Below are positions 28,475 through 63,951 of a stretch of 64,000 nt of DNA, piece after piece. Within the stretch, counting starts at the first letter, position 1. Each line of letters opens with the position of its first letter. The notes under the pieces are model-generated. The model saw nothing but the letters and a program-made list of their open reading frames with translations, had not been told where the DNA came from and did not search any database. The position numbers were made by a program, and so were the translations under genes. Source of the stretch: Siphonodentalium dalli (lineage: Eukaryota > Mollusca > Scaphopoda > Gadilida > Siphonodentaliidae); assembly GCA_032622095.1 (NCBI GenBank), contig CP136066.1:152669152-152733151 (forward strand). Direction: 5' to 3'.

Positions 28475-28476
28475 CT

Positions 28477-28937
28477 AGGCCCCTCAAGTGTGTTACATAT
28501 GCCTCTCAGAGTTTTACATATGCCTCTCAGTGTGTTACATACATGTAGGCCTCTCAGTGTTACATAGTCCTCTGTGTGTTACATAGGCCCATCAGTGTTT
28601 TACATAGGCCTCGCAGTGTTTGAAATAGGACTCGCAGTGTTTTACATATGCCTCTCAGTGTGTTATATAGGCATCTCAGTGTTACATAGGCCTCTGTGTG
28701 TTACATAGGGCCATCAGTGTTTTACATAGGCCTCGCAGTGTTTGAAATAAGACTTGCAGTGTTTTACATAGGCCTCTCAGTGTTACATAGGCCTCAGTGT
28801 TTTACATAGGCCTCTCAGTGTTTTACATAGGCCCCCTCAGTGATTTACATACATGTAGGCCTCAGTGTTTTACATAGGCCTCTCAGTGTTTTCCATAGGC
28901 ATCTGTGTTTTAAATAGGCCTCTCAGTGTTACATAGG
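28477..28937 (+). repeat. Minisatellite, ~21-bp ACATAGGCCTCTCAGTGTTTT units
   Basis: About twenty imperfect copies of a unit near ACATAGGCCTCTCAGTGTTT, with a higher-order block (GTGTTTGAAATAGGACTCGC) repeated around 28612 and 28738. Confidence 0.9.
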
Positions 28938-54100: not shown

Positions 54101-56049
54101 GGTCGAACTATATATGCGTAGATATATATGATGTGAACTGGAAAGTTAATCGGAATTTCGGAGTATTGGAGCTTCGTTGTACAGAGTTTTGGACCTTCAG
54201 GCAATCGAAGATTAGGCCAGCTGATTAGGCCGGAAATATCTTAGTACAGGAAACTCTGGGATATAAAATTTCAAAATTCCAGACATTATGTCTAAAGCAA
54301 GTCTGACGAATTTCACAGAGAACTATATACCACTATAAGTATATACATAATAAATACCGTTATACGTGTTTTTGCGTTGATTTTTAACATTAAAAATTGT
54401 TGGCAGCTATTTGCGGTCTGGGTCGCATATACGCAATCCTATAATTTTCCACTTGAATTATCCCTATCAATATCAGTAGCTTTGTTTGATTTGTAATGTA
54501 TAATTATATCAACACGATTAAACGTTGACAATTAGCCATTTTTCTTCTGGCATTTATAACCGTTTCAAAATTTGTTTTTGTGACTTCTTGGTTAACCGGA
54601 AATTCACAGAGAATTGCAATCGTTTTAGTCTTGTTAGTTTAGTTTGCAATTACAGTATATAGAGCTCAGTAGTTCACATGACCACGAACTGGATCACGCC
54701 ACAATTATTTACTCCATATCTATGCCCGTGCCGTAGCTATTGAGTAGATATTCATGCATGGCATGATCAAGACCAAGAAAAGCCTTCGTGCCAACTGTGG
54801 TCGGCATGGCGTCGGCTGCCAACCATTTGCCAACGTCGGCTGCCGACATCGGACCGACGTCATAGCCGACGGCCAGGCCGACGTCGGCAAATGACATCGA
54901 ACCGACGGTGGTCGGCATGACGTCGACTGCCAACCATATGCCGACGTCATAGCCGACGGCCACGCCGACCGTCGGGCCGACGTCGGCAGCCAACGTCGGG
55001 CCGCCGTCGCTGCCGACGTCGGCCCGACGTTGGGTGGCTATCTGGGGAAGGACTGTAATAATCTGTATTGTTACCAGATACTTGTCTTTAGATGGCTTTA
55101 TCTTATAGTAGATTATAACTGTAGTTTACCGCATGGTAAGATTCCATAATCTTGAGTCGAAGTTGACCAATGTCGGGCCGCCGTCGCTGCCGACGTCGGC
55201 CCGACGTTGGGTGGCTATCTGGGGAAGGACTGTAATAATCTGTATTGTTACCAGATAATTGTCTTTAGATGGCTTTATCTTATAGTAGATTATAACTGTA
55301 GTTTACCGCATGATAAGATTCCATAATCTTGAGTCGAAGTTGACCGGAAGTGAGCGGCAGGCATTAATGAACCTTTGTTTTTCGTGTTTCCCTATGCTTT
55401 GGAAAATTTGTCAACACATCATTGACCTAAAACCACTCATGATCGAAGCAGATCGAGATTGTATATACTTATATCAGCTTTTTATAGAGACTGGATCGAA
55501 GCCATCTCAATTAACACGTTGACTGCGGGCTATGAGTTCTCTGATACTTTTTTATGTAATTCAATGGGAGTTGGCAGTCAACACGTTAACAATGATCGAG
55601 CTGTCATGGCACAACCAATGAAATAGCACCCAGCAAAGTGAACAAACATATAAATAATGATATAGAGACACAGTCTCAGACATGACCAATGGAATATGAT
55701 CGAACGGCGTCTTATAAGTCGGAAATCAGAATTTCATACTGGCCAAGTGTAACTTTAAAATAGTAGAATTTCTTACATCGTTAGAATAATCTACCACGAT
55801 TTTCTCGCCAGACTCTACAACCAGTTTTGGATAAGGGTTCGGGATCCCTTCTATGTCATCCGGGTGTTCCTTGTATTTCTCTCTTGTTTCTGGATCGACA
55901 AAATAATCATCAACCAGATCGTCTTGTTCTGACGATTCAAACTTCTCCCATTTATCTCCATAACAATTCTTCACAAACTTGTGACCATCAACAATCTTCT
56001 TCATAAACGGATTAATCGATGAGAAATAAGAGGCAGCCTTTGTTTCCAT
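41948..56049 (-). CDS. C1orf198: C1orf198 homolog (DUF4706-type), complete, five exons
   Basis: The join on the minus strand is 56049-55777, 48454-48404, 45970-45284, 42549-42349 and 42004-41948, giving 422 codons plus TAA. Every intron falls between codons (phase 0) with GT/AG ends. Three blocks match human C1orf198 as I know it: the N-terminal YFSSINPFMKKI ... QDDLVDD (human YFSSLSPMARKI ... QQDEIID), TWQDEHSGPFSWKSKSQ (human TWQDEHSAPFSWETKSQ), and the end MVSSTDSANKSGYDFLDDW (human QVSSSNVVLKTGFDFLDNW). The middle is low-complexity, rich in Ser, Lys, Asp and Glu, with KSPK-type repeats. I recall the family as DUF4706; its function is unknown. Human C1orf198 is about 327 residues, so the extra length lies in the disordered middle. 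Intron 1 is 7.3 kb and filled with repeats. Confidence 0.9.
42349..42549 (-). CDS. C1orf198: C1orf198 homolog exon 4
   Basis: Acceptor CCTACACAG, donor ATG|GTATGT, 67 codons. It starts EPAAVVIDRTDGRKSPKKSP, continues TEDFDTAELLKNTQYDD and ends GIPADSAM. The KSPKKSP run repeats the motif of exon 3. It is less conserved with human than exons 1, 2 and 5. Confidence 0.88.
42580..43739. other. Intron 3 of the C1orf198 homolog, no recognised repeat
   Basis: No exon or repeat border was recognised in this part of the intron. Confidence 0.4.
43740..43835 (+). repeat. U-family repeat, copy 2
   Basis: ATTTCTTATCGAAATGGCCA and GATGTCCCTCAACT, as at 53750-53885. Confidence 0.6.
44023..45240 (+). mobile_element. 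T element, copy 1, in intron 3
   Basis: The ends AGGCCAAAAAAAATAAAATA and its approximate inverse (GATGTTTTTTTTTTTTGGCC) frame a body shared with 49727-50641, e.g. AAGAAGTACATTAATGCTTA and GGCTGTCCATGTATATTGCA. TA lies at both borders. G-rich GGTAGGTAGGTAGGG and GGTCGGTCGGGTAACCGG sit near the ends. Copy 1 has about 230 bp more than copy 2 before the right end, including a 29-T run. The right end lies 43 bases from the donor of exon 3. Confidence 0.75.
45284..45970 (-). CDS. C1orf198: C1orf198 homolog exon 3 (large disordered exon)
   Basis: Acceptor CATCATTTCAG, donor CTGCAG|GTGTGG, 229 codons. It opens SQENLGLIDLEPDQ, continuing the KSQ of exon 2, and ends SVSSATSSPSHQLLQ. The segment is charged and Ser/Lys rich, with KSPKPTKKSPKA. 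Short AFDNF, AFDNP and DEWATF peptides near the end recall linear motifs, but no domain is assigned. The donor GTGTGG is not optimal. Confidence 0.88.
45971..46900. other. Intron 2 of the C1orf198 homolog, no recognised repeat
   Basis: No repeat family or further exon was recognised. Short ORFs on both strands look random. Confidence 0.4.
46925..47150 (+). repeat. Q-family repeat, copy 3
   Basis: TTGAAATGCAAGATGGCTGA, TAGCCATGTATTTTT and TTTGGTGACGATCGGATGAG match 32378-33430. Confidence 0.65.
47165..47235 (+). repeat. V-type G-rich fragment
   Basis: CCTAAAAATAGGGTCGGTCG followed by GTGGGTAG and a T run. Similar GGGCCTAAAAAATACCCACC sequence is at 61803-61870. Confidence 0.5.
47355..47600 (+). 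mobile_element. tRNA-derived SINE, candidate
   Basis: The head TGGAGCTCTGTGGTTAGCAC resembles a tRNA A box region, and GATGAGTTCGCAGCCTG about 55 bases later resembles a B box. A body of about 170 bp follows (GTGCCAAGTTGTGACCCTTG, TGCTCGCACTGTGTCTGC). The head cannot fold as a proper tRNA, so this is a SINE rather than a tRNA gene. Confidence 0.6.
47601..48403. other. Intron 2, no recognised feature
   Basis: A G run lies at 47825-47834. Nothing else was recognised. Confidence 0.35.
48404..48454 (-). CDS. C1orf198: C1orf198 homolog exon 2 (TWQDEHSGPFSW)
   Basis: Acceptor ATTCTTTCAG, donor AAG|GTATGC, exactly 17 codons reading YWTWQDEHSGPFSWKSK. This is the family's most recognisable block; human has LTWQDEHSAPFSWETK. 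It anchors the identification of the whole gene. Confidence 0.95.
48530..49454. other. Intron 1, no recognised feature
   Basis: AT-rich; no repeat or exon recognised. Confidence 0.35.
49455..49512. repeat. Short hairpin
   Basis: AGGTCAGATCACC pairs with GGTGATCTGACCT. Confidence 0.55.
49727..50641 (+). mobile_element. T element, copy 2, in intron 1
   Basis: About 85-90% identical by eye to copy 1 over about 850 bp, with GGTCGGTCGGGTAACCGG and TTTTTTTTGGCC at the right. The left end is truncated at a T-rich stretch. Confidence 0.75.
50843..51345 (+). pseudogene. Unrecognised + strand ORF with one in-frame stop
   Basis: ATG at 50843 opens 87 codons with an acidic stretch (SSDDDDYEPGNE) and KRKR, then TAA at 51104-51106. 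The same frame then stays open for about 79 more codons (DSTSEFETLSESDEHALSD and on) to 51345. An acidic N-terminus with a basic patch occurs in piggyBac and other transposase N-termini, but no catalytic domain follows. It lies in intron 1 of the C1orf198 homolog on the opposite strand. Most likely the dead N-terminus of a transposon protein. Confidence 0.4.
51177..51495. repeat. Inverted repeat, ~38-bp arms
   Basis: GGCGATTATCGCAATACGAT with AGGGGAACAC at the left (51187-51214) is inverted at 51454-51495. The 240-bp interior is AT-rich. Confidence 0.75.
51746..55047 (+). mobile_element. L element candidate, CGACGTCGG-rich ends
   Basis: The left border CCCAGACAGC...ACGACGTCGGG and the right border GACGTTGGGTGGCTATCTGG are approximately inverted. 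CGACGTCGG-type palindromes cluster at 51760-51900, 52085-52180, 52560-52615 and 54790-55040, strongly CpG-rich against AT-rich surroundings. No transposase is seen and the TSD is unclear, so one 3.3-kb element or several small ones are both possible. Confidence 0.45.
53750..53885 (+). repeat. U-family repeat, copy 3
   Basis: Contains ATTTCTTATCGAAATGGCTA, ATCAGAATGGCACATTGAAA and CCTCAACTCGGATCAACCTT. Confidence 0.65.
54991..55344 (+). repeat. 177-bp tandem duplication at the L right end
   Basis: CGGGCCGCCGTCGCTGCCGA recurs after exactly 177 bp (units 54991-55167 and 55168-55344) with only about four differences. Each unit holds the right end of L plus about 120 bp of flank (GGACTGTAATAATCTGTATT). 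Confidence 0.92.
55511..55589. mobile_element. 79-bp TTAA-flanked mini-element, second family
   Basis: TTAACACGTTGACTGCGGGC and GGCAGTCAACACGTTAA are inverted with TTAA on each side. It is the same size as F but of unrelated sequence. Confidence 0.75.
55777..56049 (-). CDS. C1orf198: C1orf198 homolog exon 1, start codon
   Basis: ATG at 56049-56047 is the first in-frame ATG and is followed by GAA ACA (METKAASYFSSINPFMKKIV). Donor GAT|GTAAGA, 91 codons. NCYGDKWEKFESSEQDDLVD aligns with human [20 protein letters not shown]. Human has about 27 extra residues before this block, so a shorter N-terminus is normal here or a further upstream exon exists. Confidence 0.9.
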
Positions 56050-61870: not shown

Positions 61871-61967
61871 ACACGTACACCCCATATTTGACACTTATAA
61901 AAGCTTTTTAATTTTTTTTAATTGGGAATACCATCCCAAATGTATTCATTGTTCACTCTTGTTTCTA

Positions 61968-63656
61968 TGGGCAGCCAAATTAACATATACTCAAATATTT
62001 GGAGATATATCTAATTCATTTGGAGATATCTTAAAATAAATTGCAGATATCTATAAATCGATTTGGAGAGCTCTTCAATTCATACCCTAACTATTTAGGA
62101 CACCAAAGCATTTGAAGATATCTCTAAATATTTGGAGATATCTCTAATTGATTTGGAGATATCTCCAATTATCTGGAGATATCTCCAAATATTTGAAGAT
62201 CTCTTCAAATCATTTAGAGATATCCACAAATGCATTTACGGAGAAGTATATTCGATTTATCCACTTTATATCCATAAATCATTTAGAGATATCTCCAATT
62301 CATATAGAGATATCTCCAATGTATTTAGAGATATCTCTAAATGATTTGGAGATATCTCCAATTGCTCTTCTTTATTACGGATAAGTACTTATTTGAGGAG
62401 AAGTGCAAATCATTTAGAGATATCTCTAATTCGATTTGGAGATATCTCCAATTCATTTGGAGATATCTCCAATTATATAGAGATATCTCTAATTGATTCA
62501 GGGTGGGGGGGGGGTGAAAAAAAAATTCCGGGTGGGTGGGTGGTCAAAGCCACCAACAAGCAATTTTTTCCGCAACTAAAAAAAAATTTCCTGCTTGTTT
62601 TTTTAGTGTTTTGGCAATGAGTTGGGCTTCAAAACCACTTTGAATGAGAGAAATAATGTAATTCTAACTGGTAAACTGACTGCAGGCAGTTATCGTGTTG
62701 TATTTTGTTGCAAATTTTGAAATCCAAGATGGCCGCTGGCAGCCATGTTTTTTTGGCCGAATGACCTAAAAATGACTCATTCCTATTTACATGTTCATGT
62801 TAACATCCATGATAAATAGTATGCACATAAATTCATATACAGCTGTTTACAGTGAACTTCCCCCCGCAAATCTCTGTTTTAGTATTAAAAGGGGGGGGGT
62901 GGGTGTCAAAAAATGGTCGGAAAAAACTGCCGAAAACGGAAAAAATGGCGGTGGGGGTGGGTGGGTAGAAAAAATGATCGAAAGGGAAAAAATGCCATAC
63001 GTGCCTGAAAAAAATTTCCGACCCCCCCCCCCCCCCCGATTGATTTGGAGATATCTCCAAATAATTAGAGATATCTTCAATTCATTTGGAGATATCTCCA
63101 ATTATTTGGAGATATCTCCAAATATTTAGAGATATCTTCAACTGAATTAGAGATATCTCCAAATATTTAGAGATATCTCCAATTCATTTAGAGATATCTC
63201 CAAATGATTAGAGATATCTCTAAATCATTTGGAGATATCTCCAATTATTTGGAGATATCTCCAAATCGAATTATGGAGAAATATTTTATTTACGAATATG
63301 TGACATATGTTCAAAAAGAACTTATCCTCAAATGAATTAGAGATATCTTCAAATGATTTGGAGATATCTTCAATTAATGTGGAGATATCTCTAATTAATT
63401 TAGAGATAAGTCCAATTCCAGGTTCAATTATGGATATGTGCTGATTTAGAGATATCTCAAAATGATTTGGAGATATATCCAAATATTTAGAGATATCTCC
63501 AAATCATTTAGAGATATCTCCAAATCATTTAGAGATATCTCCAAATATTTAGAGATATCTTCAAATCATTTAGAGATATCTCCAAATATTTAGAGATATC
63601 TCCAAATATTTAAAGATATCTCCAAATATTTGAGTATATGTTAATTTGGCTGCCCA
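61968..63656 (+). mobile_element. W element, 1.69 kb, array of GGAGATATCTCC palindromes
   Basis: Perfect 41-bp terminal inverted repeats start TGGGCAGCCAAATTAACATA and run into the array; TA lies on both sides (61966-61967, 63657-63658). Between them, at about 61995-62500 and 63040-63640, several dozen copies of the 12-bp palindrome GGAGATATCTCC or its one-base variants are separated by 7-9 variable A/T bases. The centre (62505-63038) is different: V-type G-rich tracts, a Q-like CCAAGATGGCCGCTGGCAGC piece and a 16-C run. No transposase ORF. Confidence 0.88.
62505..63038. repeat. Central non-palindromic core of W, G-rich V-type ends
   Basis: GGGTGGGTGGGTGGTC-like tracts at the left, and at the right GGTGGGGGTGGGTGGGTAG followed by a C run. 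It looks like a V-family element that landed inside the palindromic array. Confidence 0.5.
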
Positions 63657-63951
63657 TATGTTTCCAATTCTGTTCCACTATCTATTTTAAAAGTCACTAA
63701 AGATATATGTGCCTACCATGCATGCATGCATACCATTCAGTCTTCACCGTTATTATTGACTGTTGATAAAAATAAATGGCGTGAAACAGTTCTATCCCAA
63801 TATGTGCTTCAATCATATTAATCATTTAATATAGGTATTTATTCTGTGTAACAAACGATGCATAAACCTGCCCAAACACACGATCTAACCCCAACATAAT
63901 TTTACTAAGACCAGGTGAATCCCAGGTCCGTTCTTTTGCTGTGGAATTGTA

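Follow-up and report, generated by a model that had tools for sequence, protein, structure and literature searches.

Structure and ends of the element

The window analysed here, a stretch of 64,000 nucleotides from contig CP136066.1 of the scaphopod Siphonodentalium dalli, carries at positions 61966–63658 a transposable element filled by an array of short palindromes and split by an insertion of another family. Its features, numbered from the first letter of the window, are as follows (strand given where it applies):

61960–61965: left target-site duplication of the palindrome element, TGTTTC
61966–62008, plus strand: left terminal inverted repeat, 43 bp, perfect, first letters TATGGGCAGCC; its terminal 24 nt have 155 exact matches in the genome
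62001–62498: left part of the palindrome array, with 14 AGATATCT and some non-palindromic stretches
62492–62498: ATTGATT, left target duplication of the nested MITE, part of the array
62499–63038: nested MITE of another family, 540 bp, outside the palindrome element's own sequence
63039–63045: ATTGATT, right target duplication of the nested MITE
63046–63622: right part of the palindrome array, with 22 AGATATCT
63616–63658, minus strand: right terminal inverted repeat, 43 bp, perfect, last letters GGCTGCCCATA
63659–63664: right target-site duplication of the palindrome element, TGTTTC

The palindrome element has no coding content, and its copies are dispersed and young. The initial annotation had described perfect 41-bp inverted repeats bounded by TA. 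The repeats are perfect, but they extend over 43 bp with the TA inside them, and it is TGTTTC that flanks the element on both sides as a 6-bp target-site duplication. A TA duplication, the criterion of Tc1/mariner elements, was therefore rejected, since the duplicated letters number six and lie outside the TAT..ATA ends. These termini were found at all 33 two-ended copies, which had been chosen by their ends and comprise 11 from the 12 best array matches in the genome, seven from 20 one-ended loci and 15 pairs of exact ends. Locus L010, in which the right end is absent, was left out of the duplication count.

A perfect 6-bp duplication was present at 22 of the 33 two-ended copies, and at four more five of the six letters agreed; mismatched left-right flank pairs, used as a control, gave a 6-bp match in 4 of 1056 cases. 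Perfect flank matches at other lengths were found at one of the 33 copies (4 bp) or at none (5, 7 and 8 bp). When three pairs of loci with common flanks (L056/L057, L060/L061 and L065/L066) were counted once each, the figure became 19 of 30. The duplications support the earlier reading of the element as a transposon.

The block in the middle, which had been taken for the core of the element, proved to be a nested MITE of another family with ATTGATT on each side. That MITE is very numerous, with ends made of G/C runs and 7-bp duplications: all 40 scored genome places matched (39 besides itself, at 93–96%), out of 3849 candidates at a first look. Five sister insertions (L040–L044) likewise have 7-bp duplications, for example GTCGGAA at L042, as read by eye with ends that can be shifted by a few bases. 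Among the first twelve loci, the block is missing from ten other complete copies of the palindrome element (L002–L009, L011 and L012). It was thus rejected as a part of the element itself, and as a later insertion it implies that the intact palindrome element is one array.

The palindrome array

The window element contains 36 AGATATCT cores, and the conserved motif is about 16 bp long, TTRGAGATATCTCYAA. Dozens of copies of a perfect 12-bp palindrome, GGAGATATCTCC, had been reported from the sequence; a palindrome array does lie inside the inverted repeats, but exact GGAGATATCTCC occurs only ten times in the window, always within the element (0.01 expected from shuffles), and the majority of units read RGAGATATCTCY. 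A consensus of 1210 bp was built from 19 like-oriented copies, namely 18 copies of 1050–1450 bp and the window copy, to which the single copies are 94.7–99.8% identical; L060 and L061 (long insert) and L057 and L066 (duplicated flanks) were omitted. The consensus holds 37 units, with 29 of the 36 steps between them measuring 20–22 bp and autocorrelation peaks at 20–21, 41 and 61. Among the 36 consensus units that lie in contiguous runs, AGATATCT and its flanking TT and AA never vary, and the outer letters of the core hardly do; the core is bordered by R and Y, and the centre of the spacer is almost free. Units were called by similarity to the core (at most one mismatch), a procedure that itself favours a contrast of core and spacer between units.

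The initial annotation had also claimed that the core is conserved while the spacers drift. Between units this holds, with the bias of unit calling just given, and between copies it holds weakly. At fixed positions, mean site diversity between copies was 0.0243 in the core and 0.0301 in the spacer (p = 0.016 by permutation of sites within A/T and G/C classes); pooled values were 0.0233 for the core, 0.0292 for the spacer and 0.031 for the remaining stretches, and A/T sites alone gave 0.0165, 0.0244 and 0.0197, respectively. Equal divergence of core and spacer had been named beforehand as contrary to that claim, and between copies the two come close to it. The near-equal decay implies that the contrast between units mostly predates insertion. 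Once inserted, copies drift almost freely, and constraint on individual copies is weak at most.

Two other short-period arrays occur in the window: at 54810–55345, next to a 177-bp duplication, there are GCCGACGTCGG-like repeats, and at 28476–28937 a 21-bp TAGGCCTCTCAGTGTTTTACA array.

Copies in the genome

The exact 24-nt end of the element was found at 155 places in the 2.23 Gb genome (control, 0). Among the 100 of these that were listed, 24 pairs lay at most 1.5 kb apart and 52 ends stood alone. Of the 20 lone ends that were opened, 13 had no recognised far end within 1.5 kb. Copies other than that of the window range from 62 to 1435 bp and carry between 0 and 40 AGATATCT. The smallest, L053 (C1:28346317-28346378), is a 62-bp perfect palindrome in which the two ends are joined via CAAATATTTG with zero units between them. 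Five of six letters agree in its flanks, so the array may be dispensable for insertion unless it was lost later; the short forms down to 62 bp have probably arisen by collapse between units. At the other extreme, L068 (C2:142516300-142524000) has a single right end and four left ends, at intervals of 910, 890 and 890 bp; this tandem expansion of part of the element is possibly a nascent satellite. In effect the transposon comes with a satellite ready-made, and one locus has undergone tandem expansion.

A 32-nt pattern of two units matched 465 places in the genome (control, 0). Those listed, 50 in number, fall into 19 clusters, all on C1 and every one with an element end within 2.5 kb; the end is exact in 13 and recognisable in six (L070–L075), two of the latter being broken by extra letters. 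Arrays lacking termini, which would speak against a transposon, were thus sought and none was found among the 19 clusters listed on C1; a free satellite was rejected, given that all of these clusters adjoin a terminus. Two loci far apart on C1, L023 and L032, have flanks with common letters in opposite order (CTAAAT context), perhaps through rearrangement or a repeated target.

Superfamily assignment and search for a coding partner

According to passages of PMC10045372, IS3EU and, mostly, GingerRoot transposons have TA..TA ends and 6-bp duplications, and passages of PMC12730594 give fungal IS3EU elements TAYGG..CCRTA ends, inverted repeats longer than 30 bp and 6-bp duplications. The window element ends in TATGG..CCATA, and judged by its ends and its 6-bp duplication it matches the signature of the IS3EU/GingerRoot superfamily. 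It shares with these transposons, as portrayed in those passages, the TA..TA ends, the inverted repeats longer than 30 bp and the 6-bp duplications; it differs from them in having no transposase gene and in an interior that is wholly one palindrome array. The passages of the IS3EU literature consulted on palindromes contain no description of such arrays, and in a literature text search with the motif letters the listed matches hit TATGGGCAGCC alone, under unrelated titles.

As to the other superfamily trait, an rve-type transposase without the HHCC motif, the copies are non-coding and the genome searches gave no partner. Searches with PF24764, the IS3/IS481 models, the protein of L049 and that of L079 yielded no transposase with the ends or the palindromes of the element. 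Six loci matched by the IS3/IS481 models were opened, and five looked Gypsy-like by eye, L049 being the exception. All 20 one-ended loci lead into the array, L037 after a short stretch of other sequence, and no internal gene region is common to separate loci among these 20; L025 and L026 have common flanks and look like a duplication. Among the transposase matches and element copies listed, whose positions were compared by eye, no match lay beside a copy; the nearest, 8 kb from a copy on C9, has neither array nor end there, and a transposase fragment lies 20 kb from a copy on C3. The same searches brought up L016, L017 and L018, three long copies of a recently active element that surround a PF24764 (rva_4) frame and are nearly identical to one another.

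End arrays in other integrase-type transposons

Several loci of this genome, L077 and L079 among them, encode integrase-type transposases and have TGTTACAGT ends in TATA context. The rve and zinc domains of L077 and L079 score below the Pfam cut-offs, and the zinc domain of L081 scores above its cut-off. By comparison with passages of PMC2836005, these loci fit Ginger2; an assignment of L077–L079 to IS3EU was rejected in favour of Ginger2 on account of the TGTTACAGT ends, the TATA context and the integrase zinc domain. Ten Ginger2-type loci (L077–L083, L087, L088 and L090) have family-specific 20-bp palindromes near their ends: AGTCATTTGGCCAAATGACT in L077, L080, L082 and L088, AGTCATTTCATGAAATGACT in L081, weaker AGTAATTTCATGAAATTACT-like sites, mostly with two to five mismatches, in L078, L079, L083 and L087, and CAGTTAATACGTATTAACTG, once per side, in L090. 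The steps are mostly 29 bp, some 33 bp or other. Both ends carry sites in L077, L078, L079, L088 and L090; a single end does so in L080, L081 and L082, and in L083 and L087 the sites are concentrated at one end. In nine of the ten loci no site of the assigned type starts within the coding frame used; L087 has one, at the last bases of the frame. Eight control loci (48,007 bases) had 0–2 such sites per motif. A repeated palindrome was found in none of three further Ginger2-type loci, L085, L086 and L089.

The Ginger2 loci thus resemble the window element in their palindromes near the ends, which here accompany an integrase-type transposase; they differ in their TGTTACAGT ends, their mostly 29-bp steps, the small number of sites per end, their coding capacity and the sequences of the palindromes themselves.

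A second kind of end array was seen in a 7,025-bp GingerRoot-like element (L091, L052 and L092) with TG..CA ends and the duplication CTCCTG, which encodes an rve transposase and an OTU protein (domains taken from its relative L049). The 11-mer CTTTTGAAGTA occurs nine times at one end and eight times at the other, in steps of 18–28 bp and once of 40 bp, the motifs being direct and not palindromic. L049, L051, L052, L091 and L092 all carry 148–149-bp tandem repeats in long inverted ends, and an 11-mer array adjoins each terminus. The 7-kb type of L049 may be a variant of Ginger1, because Ginger1 proteins can carry OTU domains according to passages of PMC2836005; its single 6-bp duplication argues for GingerRoot/IS3EU. 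Motif arrays of differing sequence near the ends of integrase-type transposons therefore recur in this genome, as expected if each transposase reads a motif of its own.

Origin and possible role of the array

Taken together, the data suggest, at what we consider an even chance, a non-autonomous IS3EU/GingerRoot-type transposon with an interior that would be taken up entirely by an array of putative transposase-binding sites. A cognate integrase-type transposase would bind each palindrome of about 16–20 bp as a dimer, and steps of two helical turns would align these sites along the same face of the double helix. Slippage or unequal exchange could have lengthened the array from a short subterminal one such as its relatives carry, and a longer array would recruit more of an enzyme supplied by a partner. 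Consistent with this are the TA..TA ends, the duplications at 22 of 33 copies, the 37 units at regular steps, the Ginger2 palindromes, the GingerRoot-like 11-mers and the precedent of Galileo described below; the palindromes near Ginger2 ends in the same genome support the binding of a dimeric protein only indirectly. Against it stand the comparators themselves, the clearest of which belong to a sister superfamily with a pitch of 29 bp, while the GingerRoot-like motifs are direct and L085, L086 and L089 have no repeated palindrome. The searches that returned no transposase with the ends or palindromes of the element, the core that is barely less diverse than the spacer between copies, and L053, which has a duplication of five letters in six with zero units, also count against it.

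An alternative is a passive array, in which the non-autonomous transposon carries along a tandem repeat grown by slippage or hairpin-primed copying, whose regularity reflects recent copying and not function. We regard this as possible although doubtful. Near-equal decay of core and spacer, a core count running from none to 40 between copies, the four left ends of L068, and models for the origin of repeats inside MITEs in passages of PMC8268682 all agree with it; however, an invariant core beside a nearly free spacer centre, as seen between consensus units, would not be expected from simple copying of a 20-bp unit, and end motif arrays recur in other integrase-type transposons here. The palindromes might instead act as DNA or RNA structure, through foldback replication or double-stranded RNA, and not as protein sites. 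Folded as single-stranded DNA, the right half far surpasses 20 shuffled sequences (z = −18.6), and L053, at 62 bp, is palindromic throughout. Strong folding is expected of every palindrome array, however, and the outer R/Y pair is complementary in only 15 of 36 consensus units, which counts mildly against a hairpin requirement; hairpins or cruciforms thus seem to us improbable. Similarly low is the probability we give to a dimeric host protein that aids or silences the element: the length and palindromy of the motif would suit such a factor, but the end arrays of related transposons use other motifs, so that the element's own transposase fits better, and inserted copies are under little constraint.

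If the palindromes are indeed transposase sites, this one genome holds a natural series, from 0 to about 40 sites between near-identical ends, on which an effect of site number on transposition rate could be tested; which DNA the eukaryotic relatives of retroviral integrases recognise could then be read from sequence. We tentatively suggest, as a speculation that may well be wrong, that the element is a parasite of another transposon, its roughly 40 putative dimer sites competing for or titrating the transposase of the latter, and that subterminal arrays, with a motif and step proper to each family, are a general and so far undescribed trait of integrase-type transposons (Ginger2, GingerRoot/IS3EU).

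Comparison with known systems

Tandem repeats inside transposon ends are known from the foldback-type elements Galileo and Tetris of Drosophila. For Galileo, passages of PMC3573991 and PMC4079207 report secondary transposase sites in repeats that lie within the ends, and extra sites have been proposed for Tetris, which in the passages seen is without a known autonomous partner and feeds satellites. Both differ from the window element, according to the same kind of passages, in that their repeats of about 210–220 bp lie inside long ends and in their superfamilies (P and probably Mutator); the duplications of Tetris are 8–10 bp long, and the window element is instead filled by a 20-bp palindrome. 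Mollusc MITEs with internal tandem repeats (Donax, oyster) are, according to passages of PMC8268682, short and non-autonomous like the present element, whose repeat differs in being palindromic and in occupying the whole element. In design, the window element seems to take a known arrangement to an extreme.
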